The notes beneath the pieces are model-generated. The model saw only the letters and a list, made by a program, of their open reading frames with translations. It did not search any database and was not told where the DNA came from. Position numbers and translations under genes: made by a program. A stretch of DNA of 64,000 bases from Chryseobacterium capnotolerans (GTDB taxonomy: Bacteria > Bacteroidota > Bacteroidia > Flavobacteriales > Weeksellaceae): positions 1,989,001 to 2,053,000 of the forward strand of contig NZ_CP065589.1 of the NCBI RefSeq assembly GCF_021278965.1. Direction: 5' to 3'. Below, piece by piece: positions 3,131-12,025 of this stretch; position 1 is the first letter of the stretch, and every line of letters starts with the position of its first letter.

Positions 3131-3272
3131 AGTTTTTTCTATATTATTTATTAGCACTCTAGTTTTTCATAATTAATTTATTTTTCGTGTAAATTTTACT
3201 AAATTTACAATAATTCTCAGTATAGAGAATTAATTGAAAAATCACAGAAAACCAATCAACATTCTATTAACT

Positions 3273-4247
3273 ATGAAACTTCATCACACTTATTTCTATC
3301 ATCCGGAAAATGCGGAAACAAATCAATTCGTCATCGAACAATTTGAACAGCAAAATGTATCTATGCAGAAGATCCAGAATGCACTGGGACGCAACAATCG
3401 TTTTGTTGTAACTGAAGAGTCTGAAGAGACAACACTTTCTATGGGAATTGAAGCGGCAAAAGGAGTGCTCAGGGAAAGTAATATTTCCATTTTGGATATT
3501 GATATTATCGTATTTGTAACCAGTACTTCAGAACACCTTATACCTTGTGATGCTATTAAAATACATCAGGCATTAGGAGGGAAACCTAATACTTTATGTT
3601 ATGATATCAATGTCAATTGTATCGGGGCCTTTGTAGCTCTGGATCAGGTTTCAAAATATCTTGAAGGCTCTTTCACTGCTCAGAAAGCACTTGTTGTATG
3701 TTCAGAAAAGCTATCCAGAATATTAGATCCTAAAAATCCGATCACCGCATTTTGTTTTTCAGATTCTTCTTTTACTTTTATTGTAGAGAAAGATGATTCT
3801 TCTTCAGGATTACTGGATGTTCTGTATCATACGGACAGTAGTGTTTGCAATACAGTCTTGTTTCCTCCTGAAGGATATTCATGTTATAACCCGAATGATG
3901 TCACTTTATGGGATAGTAGCTTCGACGGAAGTGGCAGTGTCAATTTTGCATTAGATGATATGGAAGAATTTTTAGAGCATAATGATTTAAATATAGAAAA
4001 AATTGATCTGTTTTTATTTTCTCAATTTTCATTAAAGAATATTAATACTATTTGTGAGCACTTTAATTTACCTCCGGAAAAGATTCCGTTCTATTCAAGA
4101 GAAGTAGGGTATACCGGCTCTTCAAGCCCTTTTCTGGCATTACATCAATATCAGCAGAAGGTAAGAAAGCTCAAAAGAGGGGAGCATATTCTGATATGGA
4201 CACTGGGAGCAGGCTATCAGGCAGGATTAATGCTTTGGAAATACTGA
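3273..4247 (+). CDS. KAS III (FabH)-like ketoacyl synthase with an altered active site
   Basis: The ATG at 3273 gives 324 residues; a TTG at 3234 would add 13 residues of non-conserved sequence. The thiolase fold is clear: DIDIIVFVTSTSEHLIPCDA, the catalytic-cysteine motif DINVNCIGAFVALDQV, and the late motif EVGYTGSSSPFLAL. Compared with FabH, the catalytic cysteine is present. The histidine motif (HQAN) is replaced by FSQFS, and the asparagine of the GNTSAAS motif is replaced by tyrosine (GYTGSSS). Decarboxylating condensation of malonyl-ACP normally needs all three residues, so this protein may instead transfer or hydrolyse an acyl group. It has no adjacent fatty-acid or pigment genes. It is a family member with confidence, but its function is open. 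Confidence 0.75.
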   Translation: MKLHHTYFYHPENAETNQFVIEQFEQQNVSMQKIQNALGRNNRFVVTEESEETTLSMGIEAAKGVLRESNISILDIDIIVFVTSTSEHLIPCDAIKIHQALGGKPNTLCYDINVNCIGAFVALDQVSKYLEGSFTAQKALVVCSEKLSRILDPKNPITAFCFSDSSFTFIVEKDDSSSGLLDVLYHTDSSVCNTVLFPPEGYSCYNPNDVTLWDSSFDGSGSVNFALDDMEEFLEHNDLNIEKIDLFLFSQFSLKNINTICEHFNLPPEKIPFYSREVGYTGSSSPFLALHQYQQKVRKLKRGEHILIWTLGAGYQAGLMLWKY

Positions 4248-4425: not shown

Positions 4426-5235
4426 ATGAAAAAGTTAATCAACATTGTTGTTGTTCTTACCTCCTTTGCACAGTTTTCTGCACAAAAAATTATTCATCAG
4501 GAAGTTTTCAGTCCCAAAATGAATAAAAAGATCAAAACCATTATCATCACTCCCAACCTGCAGCCCAATACAACATATCCATCCGTATATATTCTTCATG
4601 GTTTCAGTGGCAATCCTGACAGGATTATCAAAGAAGATATTCCCGATATTGTTAAGAAAGCCCAGGAGTATAAAACCATTTATGTACTGCCTGATGGAAA
4701 TTACAGTTCATGGTATGTAGACAGTCCAATTGTAAAAGATTCCCAATATCAAACCTTTATCGGGAAAGAGCTCGTTGAGTTTATCGATAAAAATTATCCG
4801 GTAAAAGCCGATAAAAAGTTCAGAGGAATCCTTGGATGGAGTATGGGAGGCTATGGAGCTACTAATATTGGAGTAACTTATAATAAAACATTCGGAATTG
4901 TAGGAAGTTCTTGTGGTGCTTTAGACTTTAATTCGTTTGGGGAAGGATATACCAAGTATATGGTGAATAAAGTACTGGGGCCTTTAGAATCAATGAATTC
5001 CAACTTCCTTACAGATAGTAAAATAAAGATAATGGCTACAGCTGGTCAACGTTACATTTTCGATTGTGGAACGGAAGATGTTCAGATGATCGGGCAAAAT
5101 AGAAAGTTCCATACAAAACTTACTGAGCAAAGGATACAACACCTTTATATAGAATCTTTAGGAGCTCATGATACGCAGTATTGGAGTCGTTCACTTTCTG
5201 AGCAGTTAACCTTATTCGACAAATACTTTAGATAG
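4426..5235 (+). CDS. Secreted alpha/beta-hydrolase, esterase D (Esterase_PHB/putative esterase) type
   Basis: A 269-residue protein that starts with a signal peptide (MKKLINIVVVLTSFAQFSAQ, cleavage after about residue 20). The esterase family core is visible: YPSVYILHGFSGN (oxyanion region), the nucleophile elbow GWSMGGYGATN with the serine near residue 140, and a late histidine in SLGAHDTQYW that would complete the triad. This resembles the S-formylglutathione hydrolase/antigen 85/feruloyl esterase group. Export suggests cleavage of an extracellular or periplasmic ester. It is transcribed alone and ends at a terminator shared with the convergent MocR gene. Confidence 0.8.
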   Translation: MKKLINIVVVLTSFAQFSAQKIIHQEVFSPKMNKKIKTIIITPNLQPNTTYPSVYILHGFSGNPDRIIKEDIPDIVKKAQEYKTIYVLPDGNYSSWYVDSPIVKDSQYQTFIGKELVEFIDKNYPVKADKKFRGILGWSMGGYGATNIGVTYNKTFGIVGSSCGALDFNSFGEGYTKYMVNKVLGPLESMNSNFLTDSKIKIMATAGQRYIFDCGTEDVQMIGQNRKFHTKLTEQRIQHLYIESLGAHDTQYWSRSLSEQLTLFDKYFR

Positions 5236-5300: not shown

Positions 5301-6788
5301 TTATCTAAAATCCTTAGTATTCTTGGAAAGAACCTCAATACTCTTTTCCATTTCATCAAAATTTAAATCACCAAAACCTAACCGCATCGCAATAAGATTC
5401 TTATTCTGATAAAGCAAAGTTTTCGGGATGAAAAGATTATCCTGGGCACATTTCCGGCTCAATTGCATCAGATTAATGGGGATATTCCATTCCATCCAGA
5501 CGGCAAGGCCACCGGAAGGTTTTTCAAATCTGATAATGTCACCAAGATTTTCTTTAAGCAGAATACTGAAATGATCTCGTCTTTCCTGATATACTTTTAA
5601 AGATTTTTTCAGATAACGGTTAATTTCACCTTCTTCAATCATTTCACCCAGTGTTCTTTCCATCAAAATATCTCCTTGGCGGTCAATAATTCCGAGATAC
5701 TTTCTCATTTCCACCATCAGATTTTCAGGAGCTACTATAAATCCGGTTCTGAATCCGGGCGCTAATGATTTCCCGAAAGATCCTATATAGATGACCATTC
5801 CATTCGTATCGGCACTGGCCAGTGGCAAAATTGGACTTTTATCATAATGGAATTCATAATCGTAGTCATCTTCAAGAATAATAAATCCGTATTCATTGGC
5901 TAACTCCAGCAATTCCAACCTTCTCTGTGCACTTAAAGCTACGGTTGTAGGATAGTGATGGTGTGGAGTGAGGTAGAGCATTCTTATTTTCTGTTTTTTA
6001 CAAGCTTCCCGGACGCTTTCTACGATAATTCCGTCTTCATCAATCGGAAGAGTAACAATATTGACTCCAGCCTTCTGGAAAATCATATTCACAGAAAAAT
6101 AACTTAGATCTCCGACCAATACCGTGTCTCCTAAGGACAATAGGATTTCAGAAACAATATATATACTCATTTCCGTACTTCGGGTGATCAGAAGGTTGTT
6201 TTTAGAAATAGGCAATCCGCGGGATAGATTAAGATATTGTGATAAATGTTCCTTAAAAAACTCACTTCCATCATGGTTGTAGTGGCCAAATGCTTTCTGA
6301 TTGGATTTACGCTTAAGGATAGAGCTGTAGAACCTGGAATGCTGTCCGATCTGGGTAAGTCTGATATCCGGAACCCCATCATTAAAAACATATTCACAAT
6401 CCGAATGTTCAAAAGGATTATCTAAAATGTTAGAGGTTTTAAAAGTAAACCCGGTCGCCTTAGGGTAGTTTTGAAGGTTGTTTTCTTTAAAATCCTTCAC
6501 TTTTACAGGTTTTTCCTGATCTTTCCCAATCACAAAAGTTCCTTTGTTCGGAAAACTTTCCACCCAGCCCTGTGCAGAAAGTTCATCATATACTGCTACT
6601 GCCGTATTCCGGTGTACTTCCAGTATTTCACTGAACGCTCTGGTTCCCGGAAGTTTGGTTCCAAAAGGTAAAAAACCTCTTTGGATGGAATTCACCAATT
6701 GATTGGCTATTTGTAAATAGATAGAAGTTTCTGATTTTCTATCTATTTTAATAAAACTTTGGTAAGGAATCTTAACCGGACTATCCAT
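5301..6788 (-). CDS. MocR-type regulator: GntR helix-turn-helix fused to a class I aminotransferase domain
   Basis: A 495-residue protein. Residues 20-90 form a GntR winged helix (IYLQIANQLVNSIQRGFLPFGTKLPGTRAFSEILEVHRNTAVAVYDELSAQGWVESFPNKGTFV). The remainder is a fold-type I PLP-binding domain, with YLTPHHHYP, EDDYDYEF, and the PLP-lysine region YIGSFGKSLAPGFRTGF. MocR proteins are regulators that sense PLP or an amino compound and usually control the divergently transcribed neighbour. Here that neighbour is the biotin operon beginning at 6855, only 66 nt away, so control of biotin genes is possible. This is inference: no second target is visible and no operator was proven. Confidence 0.9.
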   Translation of the reverse strand: MDSPVKIPYQSFIKIDRKSETSIYLQIANQLVNSIQRGFLPFGTKLPGTRAFSEILEVHRNTAVAVYDELSAQGWVESFPNKGTFVIGKDQEKPVKVKDFKENNLQNYPKATGFTFKTSNILDNPFEHSDCEYVFNDGVPDIRLTQIGQHSRFYSSILKRKSNQKAFGHYNHDGSEFFKEHLSQYLNLSRGLPISKNNLLITRSTEMSIYIVSEILLSLGDTVLVGDLSYFSVNMIFQKAGVNIVTLPIDEDGIIVESVREACKKQKIRMLYLTPHHHYPTTVALSAQRRLELLELANEYGFIILEDDYDYEFHYDKSPILPLASADTNGMVIYIGSFGKSLAPGFRTGFIVAPENLMVEMRKYLGIIDRQGDILMERTLGEMIEEGEINRYLKKSLKVYQERRDHFSILLKENLGDIIRFEKPSGGLAVWMEWNIPINLMQLSRKCAQDNLFIPKTLLYQNKNLIAMRLGFGDLNFDEMEKSIEVLSKNTKDFR

Positions 6789-6828
6789 AATGTGAAAACT
6801 GGCACTGTATAACCATCCGGCAATATAC

Positions 6829-6836
6829 TACTTTTG
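6829..6836 (+). promoter_or_regulatory. Putative -7 element of the biotin operon (TACTTTTG)
   Basis: TACTTTTG matches TAnnTTTG and ends 18 nt before the ATG at 6855. It lies in the 66-nt divergent space shared with the MocR-type regulator, which is where such a regulator would bind. No TTG was found at the usual upstream distance. Confidence 0.45.
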
Positions 6837-6854: not shown

Positions 6855-7478
6855 ATGGAATTTCATCATCTGCTTAAAAGAATAGTACAGGAAGGCCGAA
6901 CCCATGCCAAATGGCTAAACACTCTGTCTTTTATGGAAAATGCCGGTGCAAGAAAAATATCGAAGTGTGAACATCCTGTGCTGGTTACTCAAATTCAGTT
7001 AAAACATGCAGCAGAAGAGCATAGACATGCCTATTACCTTAAAAAACAGATTGGAAAAATAGATCCTGAATTTTGCAAAACCTATGAAAGCAATGAGCTG
7101 CTTGCTTCTGTGGCAACCCGGCAATATTTACATTCATTAGATATCAAGGCTTGTAGATACCTTCAGGAAGTATTTGAACTTTCCAAAGAAGATCTCAAAT
7201 ATGCAGCTTATCTATTTGTTACGTATGCTATTGAAGTTCGTGCTGATGAACTTTATCCTGTTTATCAACAAATTCTTACAGAAGAATCTTCCAAAATTAT
7301 GGTAAAGTCGATTATCCTGGAAGAAGAAGGACATCTTGAAGAAATGATTAACCAGCTTAATGAATTCTCTGAAGATTGGCAGCTGCATGCAGATCATATT
7401 CTGAAAATTGAAAAAGAGCTTCATGACCAATGGATCAGTGCAATTGCTGAAGAAGTAGCACAGTTGAATTATGCTTAA
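6855..7478 (+). CDS. Ferritin-like (putative di-iron) protein heading the biotin operon
   Basis: A 207-residue, all-helical, soluble protein that I cannot assign to a named family. Its carboxylate/histidine pattern is that of a ferritin-like four-helix di-iron site: E28 (SFMENAG), E55-x-x-H58 (AAEEHRHA), E127 and E132 (AIEVRADELY), and E157-x-x-H160 (LEEEGHLEEM). The two ExxH motifs are about 100 residues apart, as in di-iron oxidases and oxygenases. Its stop overlaps the bioF start by 8 nt (7471-7478), so the two are translationally coupled. The window holds no bioC, bioH, bioW or bioI, so the source of the pimeloyl group is not encoded here. A hypothesis is that this protein takes part in making or handling the pimeloyl precursor by an oxidative step. 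Fold assignment is moderately sure; function is speculation. Confidence 0.7.
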   Translation: MEFHHLLKRIVQEGRTHAKWLNTLSFMENAGARKISKCEHPVLVTQIQLKHAAEEHRHAYYLKKQIGKIDPEFCKTYESNELLASVATRQYLHSLDIKACRYLQEVFELSKEDLKYAAYLFVTYAIEVRADELYPVYQQILTEESSKIMVKSIILEEEGHLEEMINQLNEFSEDWQLHADHILKIEKELHDQWISAIAEEVAQLNYA

Positions 7479-8580
7479 AAACATTAGTTTTTGTCAGGAA
7501 GCTCTCCACAAAAGAAAACAGGAGGGAACCTTAAGGACTTTAAAGCCTAAAACTGATGGCGTTGATTTCTATTCTAATGATTATCTCGGATTAGCAAGGA
7601 ATGAAGAACTTCATAATAAGTTATTAAAGAAACTCAATGCCAACCCCCAGCTGCTTTCTGGAAGTACAGGCTCCCGGCTGATTAGTGGAAACAGTACTGT
7701 TGCAGATTCTGTAGAAAGTTTTATTGCTGAAAAGCATCAATATCAGTCTGCATTGCTTTTTCCCTCCGGTTACCAGGCTAATTTAGCTCTGTTTTCAACA
7801 CTTCCTGGCCGGCATGATACAGTGATTGTGGATGAGCAGATCCACCGTTCGGTACATGATGGATGCAAAATGTCAAATGCAAGGAAATTAAAATTCAACC
7901 ATAACAATCCTGAGCATCTGGAAAATGTTTTAAAAAGGCAGGAAGGGCATTGCTATATTGCCATTGAAAGTCTTTATTCTATGGAAGGGGATCTTGCTCC
8001 GATCAGAGAAATTGCTGAACTGGCAAAACAGTACGGAGCTGAGTTGATTGTGGATGAAGCTCATGCTTTCGGTGTTTTTGGATATGGCTTGGTAGAAAAA
8101 TATGGCTTAAAAGATGAGATTACAGCTAATGTAGTTACTTATGGTAAAGCATTAGGTGCTCACGGGGCTGCAATTCTTTGTCATGATAGTATAAAATCTT
8201 ATCTGGTCAATTTTGCCTCTCCATTTATTTATACCACTGCTGCACAGGATTTTCAATGGATGAGTATAAAAACGGGATACGATTTTTTGGAAAACCATCA
8301 CGAATTGTCTTTACTGCTCCAGAAAAATATTAAAATATTCCAAAATCAGGGATTGGCATCACCATCTTCGGTAATGAGTCCCATTCAGGCTATTGTTATT
8401 CCTGACAACCAGAAATTGAAAGCTTTACAGGAAACATTATCAGAAGAAGGATTTTTAACCTATGCTATATACAGTCCAACTGTAAAACAAGGAGCTGAAA
8501 GACTCAGAATATGCCTGCACAGCTTCAATACAGAAGAAGAGATTGTTAAACTTACAGAAATCATCAAAGATTTTCTGTAA
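7471..8580 (+). CDS. bioF: 8-amino-7-oxononanoate synthase
   Basis: A 369-residue PLP enzyme of the alpha-oxoamine synthase family, which condenses pimeloyl-ACP (or -CoA) with L-alanine to give 8-amino-7-oxononanoate. Visible motifs are DFYSNDYLGLA near the N-terminus, GSTGSRLISGN, LFPSGYQAN, the PLP-contact VDEAHAFGVFG, and the Schiff-base lysine in VTYGKALGAHGA (about residue 226). Length and order fit BioF well; the related KBL and ALAS enzymes are usually longer. It starts inside the ferritin-like gene and is followed by bioD and bioB, which supports the biotin assignment. Confidence 0.93.
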   Translation: MLKNISFCQEALHKRKQEGTLRTLKPKTDGVDFYSNDYLGLARNEELHNKLLKKLNANPQLLSGSTGSRLISGNSTVADSVESFIAEKHQYQSALLFPSGYQANLALFSTLPGRHDTVIVDEQIHRSVHDGCKMSNARKLKFNHNNPEHLENVLKRQEGHCYIAIESLYSMEGDLAPIREIAELAKQYGAELIVDEAHAFGVFGYGLVEKYGLKDEITANVVTYGKALGAHGAAILCHDSIKSYLVNFASPFIYTTAAQDFQWMSIKTGYDFLENHHELSLLLQKNIKIFQNQGLASPSSVMSPIQAIVIPDNQKLKALQETLSEEGFLTYAIYSPTVKQGAERLRICLHSFNTEEEIVKLTEIIKDFL

Positions 8581-8614: not shown

Positions 8615-9226
8615 ATGAAACTATTTATAACAGGTATAGGAACTGAAATCGGAAAAACCGTTTGTTCCGCCATTTTAGTACAACATTTCAAAGCCGATTA
8701 CTGGAAGCCTGTACAATCAGGAGATCTTCATTATACAGACAGTCATAAAATTGCAACCTGGACAGATAATACGGTTTGCCATCCCGAAATTTACCGCCTT
8801 CAATTGGCTGCATCACCACATCAGTCAGCAAGAGCAGAAAACATACAGATTCATCTTAATGATTTCCAGCTGCCGGAAACCCAAAACTCTCTGATCGTAG
8901 AAGGCGCCGGAGGGCTTATGGTCCCGCTTTCTGATGATACTTTTATGATTGATCTGCTTGAAAGATTAAGACTTCCTGCTGCACTCGTAGTAAGAAATTA
9001 TTTAGGGTGCATCAATCATACTTTACTCTCCATTATGGTGCTTCAACAAAGAAATATAAGGCTTGAGTACCTTGTTCTCAACGGAGAATTTCCTGAAGAT
9101 ACCGAAAGAGTAATCTGTAATTACATTAAAAATGAAACAAAAATTATCAAAATCCCTGAGATAAAAAGTACGGATAAAGAACATGTAGCAATGGCTGCAC
9201 AACAATTAAAAATAACAAAATTATGA
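8615..9226 (+). CDS. bioD: Dethiobiotin synthetase
   Basis: The ATG at 8615 gives 203 residues and places the P-loop at the right distance ([15 protein letters not shown], residues 1-15). Starts further upstream would overlap bioF by tens of bases and are not conserved. BioD carboxylates 7,8-diaminononanoate with CO2 and ATP to form dethiobiotin. YWKPVQSG and the [14 protein letters not shown] motif (about residue 95) are both diagnostic. The gene begins 34 nt after bioF and overlaps bioB by 4 nt (ATGA at 9223). Confidence 0.93.
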
Positions 9227-10218
9227 TAATGGATAGAACTACAACCAGAAACAACTGGACTAAAGAAGAAATAGAAGAAATTTATCACTTGCCTCTTATG
9301 GAGTTGATCTATAAGGCAGCAACTGTACATCGTGAATGGCATGATCCTTCTGAGGTACAGATCTCTACTTTATTATCCATCAAAACAGGAGGGTGTCCGG
9401 AAGACTGTTCATACTGTGGACAGGCTGCCCGCTATCACACCAATATCAAAGTGCAGGCCTTGCTTCCTACTGAAACCGTAATTGCTCACGCTCAAAAAGC
9501 AAAAGACAGCGGTTCTTCCCGTTTCTGCATGGCTGCTGCCTGGCGTGAAGTTCGTAACAACCGTGATTTTGACAGGGTTATTGATATGGTAAAAGGAGTT
9601 AATGAACTTGGACTGGAAGTATGCTGTACCTTGGGAATGCTTACTGAAGAACAGGCTGTGAGGCTTCAGGAGGCAGGATTATATGCCTACAATCATAATC
9701 TTGATACTTCTGAACAGTATTATGAAGAGATTATTTCCACCAGAACATTTGATAACCGAATCAATACCATCAATAATGTCCGCAAAGCAGGAATTACAGT
9801 GTGTTCCGGTGGAATTATTGGTCTTGGCGAAACCCATAGAGACAGAATTTCCATGCTATTAACATTAGCTACTATGCCTAAGCATCCGGAATCTGTTCCT
9901 ATCAATGCTTTAGCTAGAGTAGAAGGAACTCCATTGGAAGATAATGAGAAAGTAGATCCATGGGAAATGGTAAGGATGATCGCTACTGCGAGAATTGTGA
10001 TGCCGGCTTCTATGGTAAGATTAAGCGCCGGGCGTATAGAAATGACAGAAACTGAACAGGCATGGTGTTTTATGGCAGGAGCTAACTCTATTTTCACAGG
10101 AGAAAGAGAAACGCTTTTGGTTACACCTAATCCAGGGGTGTCTGAAGATATGCAAATGTTGGAAACGCTGGGATTAAAACCGATGATGAAAAAGAAAGCT
10201 GCTGCTAAACGATTATAA
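9223..10218 (+). CDS. bioB: Biotin synthase (radical SAM)
   Basis: A 331-residue radical SAM enzyme that inserts sulfur into dethiobiotin. The [4Fe-4S] motif is C58-x3-C62-x2-C65 ([12 protein letters not shown]). Further BioB marks are [42 protein letters not shown] [16 protein letters not shown], and the arginine-containing VRLSAGR that binds the [2Fe-2S] cluster. The ATG at 9223 overlaps the bioD stop (ATGA); a second ATG at 9229 is an alternative start. A 517-bp repeat-rich gap separates it from bioA. Confidence 0.96.
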
Positions 10219-10735
10219 ATAATGAGTCATGAGTTTCTGGATTTTAATTATGTATATTTTGAGCTTTGTTCAAGAATTACTTATTAAACTCCTTGATTCT
10301 TAGTTTTTATAGATTTAAACGCTAAGACCGCAAAGAGAAGCATAATGAAGCTGCATATTTTTCGTTCGCAAGGGCATTGCATTCAGCAGAGAAAAGTATA
10401 ACAGTTAGTAGCTGAGTGAAACGCCTTTGCGTTCTTAAACTATACTACATGATTATAAAACCTTAGCGAGCATTGCGTTAAAAACAGAAACACTTAATTA
10501 TTATAATTTAAAGGCTAAGACCGCAAAGAGAAGCATAATGAAGCTGCTTATTTTTCGTTCGCAAGTGCATTGCATTCAGCAGAGAAAAGTATATCAATCA
10601 ATGGCTCTTAGCTGAGTGAAACGCCTTTGCGATCTTAAAGATTATACTACATGATTATAAAACTTTAGCGATCATTGCGTTAAAAACAGAAAATAGTACT
10701 GCTTTCAAAAAAGCATCAATACATTTATATCAAAT
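10219..10735. repeat. Repeat-filled gap between bioB and bioA: two direct copies of a palindromic element
   Basis: Two near-identical units lie in direct orientation at 10321-10490 and 10513-10692. Each begins GCTAAGACCGCAAAGAGAAG and ends TTGCGTTAAAAACAGAAA. Within a unit, GCTAAGACCGCAAAG pairs imperfectly with the later CTTTGCG(T/A)TCTTA, so each can fold into a large hairpin. The second copy has about 10 extra bases in the middle. I see no gene here. The bases after 10692 hold the bioA leader. Confidence 0.8.
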
Positions 10736-12025
10736 ATGGATACAATAACACCAACCAGTCTTCAGGAAAGGGATAAAGCCGTTAACTGGCATCCTTATAC
10801 CCAGATGAAAACGGCTGACAATATTATTCCCATTGTGAAAGGGAAAGGTCTTTACCTTTTTGATAATGAAGGTAAAAAATATATGGATGTCGTTTCTTCA
10901 TGGTGGGTAACCCTGCACGGACATTCACATCCTTATATTGCTCAACGTATATTTGAACAGCTCAATACTCTGGAACAGGTTATTTTTGCAGGGTTTACTC
11001 ATGAGCCGGCCACTCAGCTTTCGGAAAGACTGTTAAAGCTTTTACCTGAAAATCAGGACAAAGTCTTCTATTCGGATAATGGGTCTACCGCTGTAGAAGT
11101 AGCTCTGAAAATGTGTATTCAGTATGCCCATAACCAGGGAAAAGAGAAAACGAAAATTCTTGCTTTTAAAAATGCATATCATGGTGATACGTTTGGGGCG
11201 ATGTCTGTAAGTGGAAAAAGCTATTGGACTAAACCTTTTGAAAGCAGGCTCTTTGAGGTTATTTTCATTGATACACCCAATGCTGAAAATATGGAAAGCC
11301 TGCAATCACAAATTAAAGATCTTGCTGATGAGGTAGCATGTTTTATTTATGAACCTTTAGTTCAGGGAGCGGCAGGAATGCTGATGTATAAGGCAGAAGA
11401 TCTGAATAGCTTAATGAAATTCTGCCGGGAGCAGGGAGTGTTGATGATTCAGGATGAGGTTTTTACAGGATTTGGAAGGACCGGAAAGCTTTTTGCGGCT
11501 CATTATCTTACTGAAAAGCCAGATATTATGTGTTTTTCAAAAGGATTGACAGGCGGAACAATGCCGATGGGGATCACAACGTGCTCCAAAACGATCTATG
11601 AAGCTTTCTGGTCTGATGACAAATACAAAACACTTTTTCACGGACATTCATTTACAGCTAATCCTTTAGCCTGTACGGCGGGATTGGCAAGTATGGATTT
11701 ATTACTTCAAGAAGATACCCAAATGAACATCAAACGTATTTCTCAACAGCATTCAACGTTTATTAAAGTGCTGGCTTCTCATCCGCAAGTTGAAAATGCC
11801 CGCCAGATCGGAACTATTCTGGCATTTGATTTTAAAACCGGACATGGCACTTCCTATTTTAATGAAATAGGGAAAAGACTTTATAATGAATTTTTACAAA
11901 GGGGGATCATTATGCGCCCATTAGGAAATGTTCTTTATCTGGTTCCGCCATATTGTATTACTTCTGAAGAACTGAATGTTGTGTATCAGAATATTCTGGA
12001 GGTTCTGGATCAGTTTAAAGATTGA
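10736..12025 (+). CDS. bioA: Adenosylmethionine--8-amino-7-oxononanoate aminotransferase
   Basis: A 429-residue class III aminotransferase that transfers the amino group of S-adenosylmethionine to 8-amino-7-oxononanoate. BioA-specific features include NWHPYTQMKT at residues 18-27, MDVVSSWWVTLHGHSHP, the PLP phosphate loop YSDNGSTAVEVALKM, QDEVFTGFGRTG, and the Schiff-base lysine in CFSKGLTGGTMPMG. The pairing of W-W-V and the tyrosine of HPYTQ is typical of SAM-using enzymes. It is the last gene of the biotin group and was probably once contiguous with bioB before the repeats spread into the gap. Confidence 0.94.
   Translation: MDTITPTSLQERDKAVNWHPYTQMKTADNIIPIVKGKGLYLFDNEGKKYMDVVSSWWVTLHGHSHPYIAQRIFEQLNTLEQVIFAGFTHEPATQLSERLLKLLPENQDKVFYSDNGSTAVEVALKMCIQYAHNQGKEKTKILAFKNAYHGDTFGAMSVSGKSYWTKPFESRLFEVIFIDTPNAENMESLQSQIKDLADEVACFIYEPLVQGAAGMLMYKAEDLNSLMKFCREQGVLMIQDEVFTGFGRTGKLFAAHYLTEKPDIMCFSKGLTGGTMPMGITTCSKTIYEAFWSDDKYKTLFHGHSFTANPLACTAGLASMDLLLQEDTQMNIKRISQQHSTFIKVLASHPQVENARQIGTILAFDFKTGHGTSYFNEIGKRLYNEFLQRGIIMRPLGNVLYLVPPYCITSEELNVVYQNILEVLDQFKD

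Follow-up and report, generated by a model that had tools for sequence, protein, structure and literature searches.

The first gene of the biotin operon of Chryseobacterium capnotolerans encodes a 207-aa protein that, judged from its sequence, is almost certainly BioE, an ortholog of a published di-iron oxygenase, and would supply pimeloyl by cleavage of an acyl chain. The gene (bioE, positions 6855–7478, forward strand) lies in a window of 64,000 nt (assembly GCF_021278965.1, contig NZ_CP065589.1, positions 1,989,001 to 2,053,000 of the forward strand), to which all coordinates refer. BioE has been described from Elizabethkingia and Chryseobacterium as a non-heme di-iron oxygenase that cuts C7–C8 of long-chain acyl-ACP/CoA to yield pimeloyl-ACP/CoA, and its partner BioL as a repressor of the MocR family that responds to 8-amino-7-oxononanoate (PMC12915131, Adv Sci, December 2025); the original BioE report is cited there as ref. 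37 (PNAS 2025). In an initial annotation of the window a di-iron oxidase cleaving acyl-ACP to pimeloyl in the manner of BioI had been guessed, and this is exactly what PMC12915131 reports for orthologs. The same annotation called the route undescribed, which is wrong because it was in print in 2025 as BioE-BioL with this genus included. The window gene is an ordinary ortholog of a known enzyme and is not new, so that no novelty is left for the gene itself.

The bioE gene and its product

The open reading frame starts with ATG, and a chance ORF is excluded by 80 invariant columns among 59 aligned sequences with identities to the window protein as low as 55%. Among named relatives the nearest are from Chryseobacterium (77 of the 80 named loci), and C. 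indologenes records encode proteins that are 79–90% identical to window BioE; for comparison, PMC12915131 set the limit of its ortholog search, with EmBioE as reference, at >40% identity with 85% coverage. A tblastn search of the PLSDB plasmids gave no BioE match, and no RNA element of Rfam reached its gathering score between 5200 and 12500.

Searches of Pfam, NCBIfam and PDB with the 207-aa protein returned nothing significant; the best solved chains for BioE matched with E 0.23 and 1.4. For 24 of the 59 aligned members, the window protein not being one of them, weak matches to Pfam Rubrerythrin were observed (best E 1.4e-4). From the ligand spacing, these weak matches in relatives and the published models we infer a ferritin-like fold for window BioE. 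The same matches, together with the names rubrerythrin or bacterioferritin that relatives bear in some sources, could be taken to indicate an iron or peroxide-stress protein of this kind that is merely located in a biotin operon. We regard this as very improbable, as bioE stays beside bioF or bioA across several families, BioE excludes BioC in the genome survey described below and pimeloyl-forming activity has been measured for orthologs (PMC12915131).

Iron ligands and channel residues of published BioE are conserved

The ligands of EmBioE, E26, E53, H56, E125, E155 and H158, correspond to E28, E55, H58, E127, E157 and H160 of the window protein with a constant shift of +2. All six are invariant in 107 of 107 bioE loci, a set made up of the window locus itself, 80 named loci and 26 others in which species may repeat. 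The ligand pattern read in the initial annotation stands for E28, E55xxH58 and E157xxH160; its alternative 'E127/E132' narrows to E127, which is present in 107 of 107 loci, E132 being found in only 97. Eleven further EmBioE residues have been published (acyl channel, CoA patch and inhibitor contacts), and 10 of them are identical at +2 in the window protein. The sole mismatch is K46 of EmBioE, which is Q48 here. The CoA patch is the least conserved of the published parts: R89 is kept in 77 of the 107 loci, F26 and Q90 in 95 and H93 in 101.

In the BioE of Chlamydia psittaci (CpBioE) the six ligands recur, offset by −13, and 9 of 11 channel residues are identical and fall on invariant columns, as determined by arithmetic on the 59-sequence alignment; both EmBioE and CpBioE were compared by their published residue numbers. 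However, the chlamydial enzyme differs in being a monomer that accepts acyl-ACP only, and Chlamydia has no bioL (PMC12915131).

Organization of the biotin operon

The initial annotation was right that the 207-aa frame is the first of a biotin operon, with an 8-nt overlap into bioF. On the same strand follow bioF, bioD, bioB and bioA. For bioF (7471–8580; 8-oxoamino acid synthase) the best match was TIGR00858 with 302.5 bits, below the cut-off of 426.45. The other three genes score above the cut-offs of their models: bioD (8615–9226; dethiobiotin synthase) with 111.6 bits for TIGR00347, bioB (9223–10218; biotin synthase), whose start overlaps the bioD stop, with 408.2 bits for TIGR00433, and bioA (10736–12025; DAPA aminotransferase) with 556.7 bits for TIGR00508. 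A gap of 517 nt precedes bioA. This gap contains a doubled repeat of about 190–200 nt (10313–10692); it belongs to a dispersed repeat for which the genome gives 14 matches, this copy counted.

With the window copy counted, bioF turned up in the vicinity of bioE in 105 of 107 loci and a divergent bioL in 100 of 107; in the seven loci lacking bioL and the two lacking bioF the gene may sit elsewhere, because those stretches had only 1.5 kb of flank. In 74 of the 105 cases bioF overlaps bioE, in 27 it starts no more than 40 nt away, in three it lies farther off and in one it is on the opposite strand. The order bioL, bioE, bioF, bioD, bioB, bioA is wholly kept in a locus with a 63% identical BioE (L121). 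In three distant loci (L089, L090 and L091, 58% identical) bioE is away from the operon head, beside bioA or opposite bioF; bioE adjoins bioA in L090 and L091. The 1.5-kb flanks of these three loci contain no bioL, and the nearest named proteins to the BioE of L091 are from Mucilaginibacter.

Other pimeloyl routes in the genome

The initial annotation had noted that no bioC, bioH, bioW or bioI is nearby, and a model search for these four extends the statement to the whole genome. No BioC exceeded the curated cut-off of 184.95 bits (81.4 bits at best, with partial coverage of the model) and none of 16 matches to the BioH model exceeded 206.95 bits (best 74.6 bits). Neither a BioW at E 1e-5 nor any P450 at E 0.001 was found anywhere in the genome. 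The search covered BioC, BioH, BioW and P450. The BioI of Bacillus subtilis likewise produces pimeloyl-ACP by oxidative cleavage of a long acyl-ACP (PMC12915131), but it is a heme P450, the type of enzyme for which the window genome gave no match.

A FabH-like KAS III gene (3234–4247, listed with a TTG start) is located 2.6 kb upstream of bioE and yields 113.5 bits with the fabH model (cut-off 292.1); a putative esterase gene (4426–5235) lies near it. That this KAS III provides pimeloyl in a BioZ-like manner, leaving another role for the di-iron protein, is suggested by its proximity and appears exceedingly unlikely, since among the 80 named relative loci, for the most part taken with 8 kb of flank, the gene occurs at only 3 (L002, L007 and L013), and it was rejected as a member of the system.

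The divergent regulator BioL and a putative operator

A gene that the initial annotation had not mentioned starts 66 nt upstream of bioE on the other strand (bioL, 5301–6788, reverse strand) and encodes a MocR-family regulator of 495 aa, for which the PdxR-like model NF052282 was best (308.6 bits, cut-off 320). In EmBioL, R50 belongs to the DNA-binding domain and K340 binds PLP (PMC12915131). Window BioL carries both residues at the published numbers, and among 100 bioL copies R50 is kept in 100 and K340 in 99. By these sequence features the product matches the repressor BioL. A bioL deletion has been made in C. indologenes and repression by BioL has been shown (PMC12915131).

Within the gap we found a conserved stretch of 38 bp (6799–6836) which consists of two C[T/C]GGCA half-sites 18 bp apart, followed by TACTTTTG; its sequence reads CTGGCAC, ten bases, TCCGGCAATATACTACTTTTG. 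The TACTTTTG element (6829–6836) ends 18 nt ahead of the bioE start. The window gap shows 0 mismatches to the operator pattern with its 35 fixed positions. In the set of 100 bioL-bioE gaps, 94 have 0–6 mismatches and six have 12–14; an alignment of the gaps left out the 6 that are longer than 80 nt. The matches are not independent proof, because the pattern was derived from the same sites. Genome-wide, one exact copy and nine sites at 3 mismatches were detected, in comparison to 1 for a reversed control. We infer that the conserved stretch is a putative BioL site, and BioL probably represses the biotin operon at this position within the 66-nt gap.

Next to the site ahead of bioE, the upstream stretches of bioA and bioB were searched with the same pattern. 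Before bioA, the best sites in 79 stretches of 450 nt had 16–20 mismatches, compared with 12–20 for one shuffle of each; before bioB, 79 stretches of 150 nt gave 17–21 mismatches, no better than shuffled sequence. In Elizabethkingia BioL has two targets, bioEFD and bioBA (PMC12915131). The window differs in that we detected no second operator ahead of either bioB or bioA; since bioB overlaps bioD, one putative operator could serve bioEFDB. In other respects the system resembles BioE-BioL of Elizabethkingia meningoseptica and Chryseobacterium: the ligands and all but one of the other published residues are shared, a divergent MocR gene with both key residues is present, bioE stands ahead of bioF and bioD, and the genome is without BioC, BioW and P450.

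Distribution of BioE and BioC in Bacteroidota

The survey comprised 296 Bacteroidota genomes with a completeness of at least 90%. BioE is carried by 11 of them; within the host's family it was found in 22 of 110 genomes. The BioC model TIGR02072 exceeded its cut-off in 61 genomes and reached E 1e-35 or better in 97, and the latter, looser than the curated cut-off, were taken as BioC carriers. Matches between 1e-20 and 1e-35 were left uncounted; such matches occur in 8 of the 11 genomes with BioE and in 12 further ones. In the eight BioE genomes, including the window genome, the matches are weak and partial (79.8–89.5 bits) and look like other methyltransferases. We found bioB in 151 genomes and bioA over the cut-off in 141, with 6 genomes below the cut-off dropped.

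The anti-correlation for which the initial annotation had proposed a survey is borne out: 0 of 296 genomes carry BioE together with BioC, and BioW is present in 0 of 296. Among the 140 genomes that possess both bioA and bioB, 85 contain a BioC-like protein, 11 contain BioE, none contains both and 44 contain neither (Fisher p 1.8e-5 for the exclusion, ignoring shared descent). These 44 genomes carry none of BioE, BioC and BioW. From genomes without the three, eight bioA loci were fetched, and in three of them a ketosynthase gene (PF00109, PF02801) is close to bioA (L126:7025–8200, L127:7294–8460 and L133:10292–11512). The bioA-linked ketosynthase is a possible further route to pimelate; a literature search, judged by title, found no report of it in this role.

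Proposed mechanism

For the orthologs EmBioE and CpBioE, formation of pimeloyl from acyl-ACP/CoA and bypass of BioC-BioH in E. coli have been reported; a need for O2 has likewise been shown for orthologs, as has the iron content of CpBioE (PMC12915131). By analogy, the window ortholog would be expected to have a pimeloyl-forming activity like that of published BioE. The protein would hold its di-iron site inside a ferritin-like helical bundle, and its hydrophobic channel would take a long acyl chain on ACP (or CoA). With O2 and electrons it would cut C7–C8 and release pimeloyl-ACP/CoA and a shorter fatty acid. The pimeloyl thioester would be used by BioF, which is read from the overlapping frame, and BioA, BioD and BioB would complete biotin. 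BioL would repress the operon and sense 8-amino-7-oxononanoate as published. Cyanobacterial aldehyde deformylating oxygenase and other ferritin-like di-iron oxygenases have a comparable di-iron site (PMC12915131); they differ in substrate and reaction, and sequence searches with BioE gave no significant match to solved chains.

It is hardly conceivable that the enzyme only hydroxylates or desaturates the acyl chain and leaves the cleavage itself to an unknown partner: PMC12915131 does propose several oxidation steps and says that the exact mechanism calls for more study, but in that study purified CpBioE converted C18-ACP in the presence of PMS and NADH to pimeloyl-ACP and undecanoic acid, and the operon here is without any other uncharacterised gene.

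Starting from cleavage by BioE itself, a tentative extension, which we consider rather doubtful, concerns substrate and control. Chryseobacterium BioE might act chiefly on acyl-CoA and deliver pimeloyl-CoA to a CoA-specific BioF, in which case biotin would draw on fatty acids that are taken up or broken down and not on newly synthesized ones; in addition, a single BioL operator might act on bioEFDB, with bioA not under its control. CoA specificity of EmBioF has been reported in vivo.

Implications

Reading the sequence by itself recovered a biotin route that was not in print before 2025, a point in favour of the method. To the published route our analysis adds that the other tested routes are missing in this genome, that BioE and BioC are mutually exclusive in the 296 Bacteroidota genomes surveyed and that a putative BioL operator is conserved. 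The question of pimelate supply extends beyond BioE to the 44 of 140 genomes with bioA and bioB that are without BioE, BioC and BioW.
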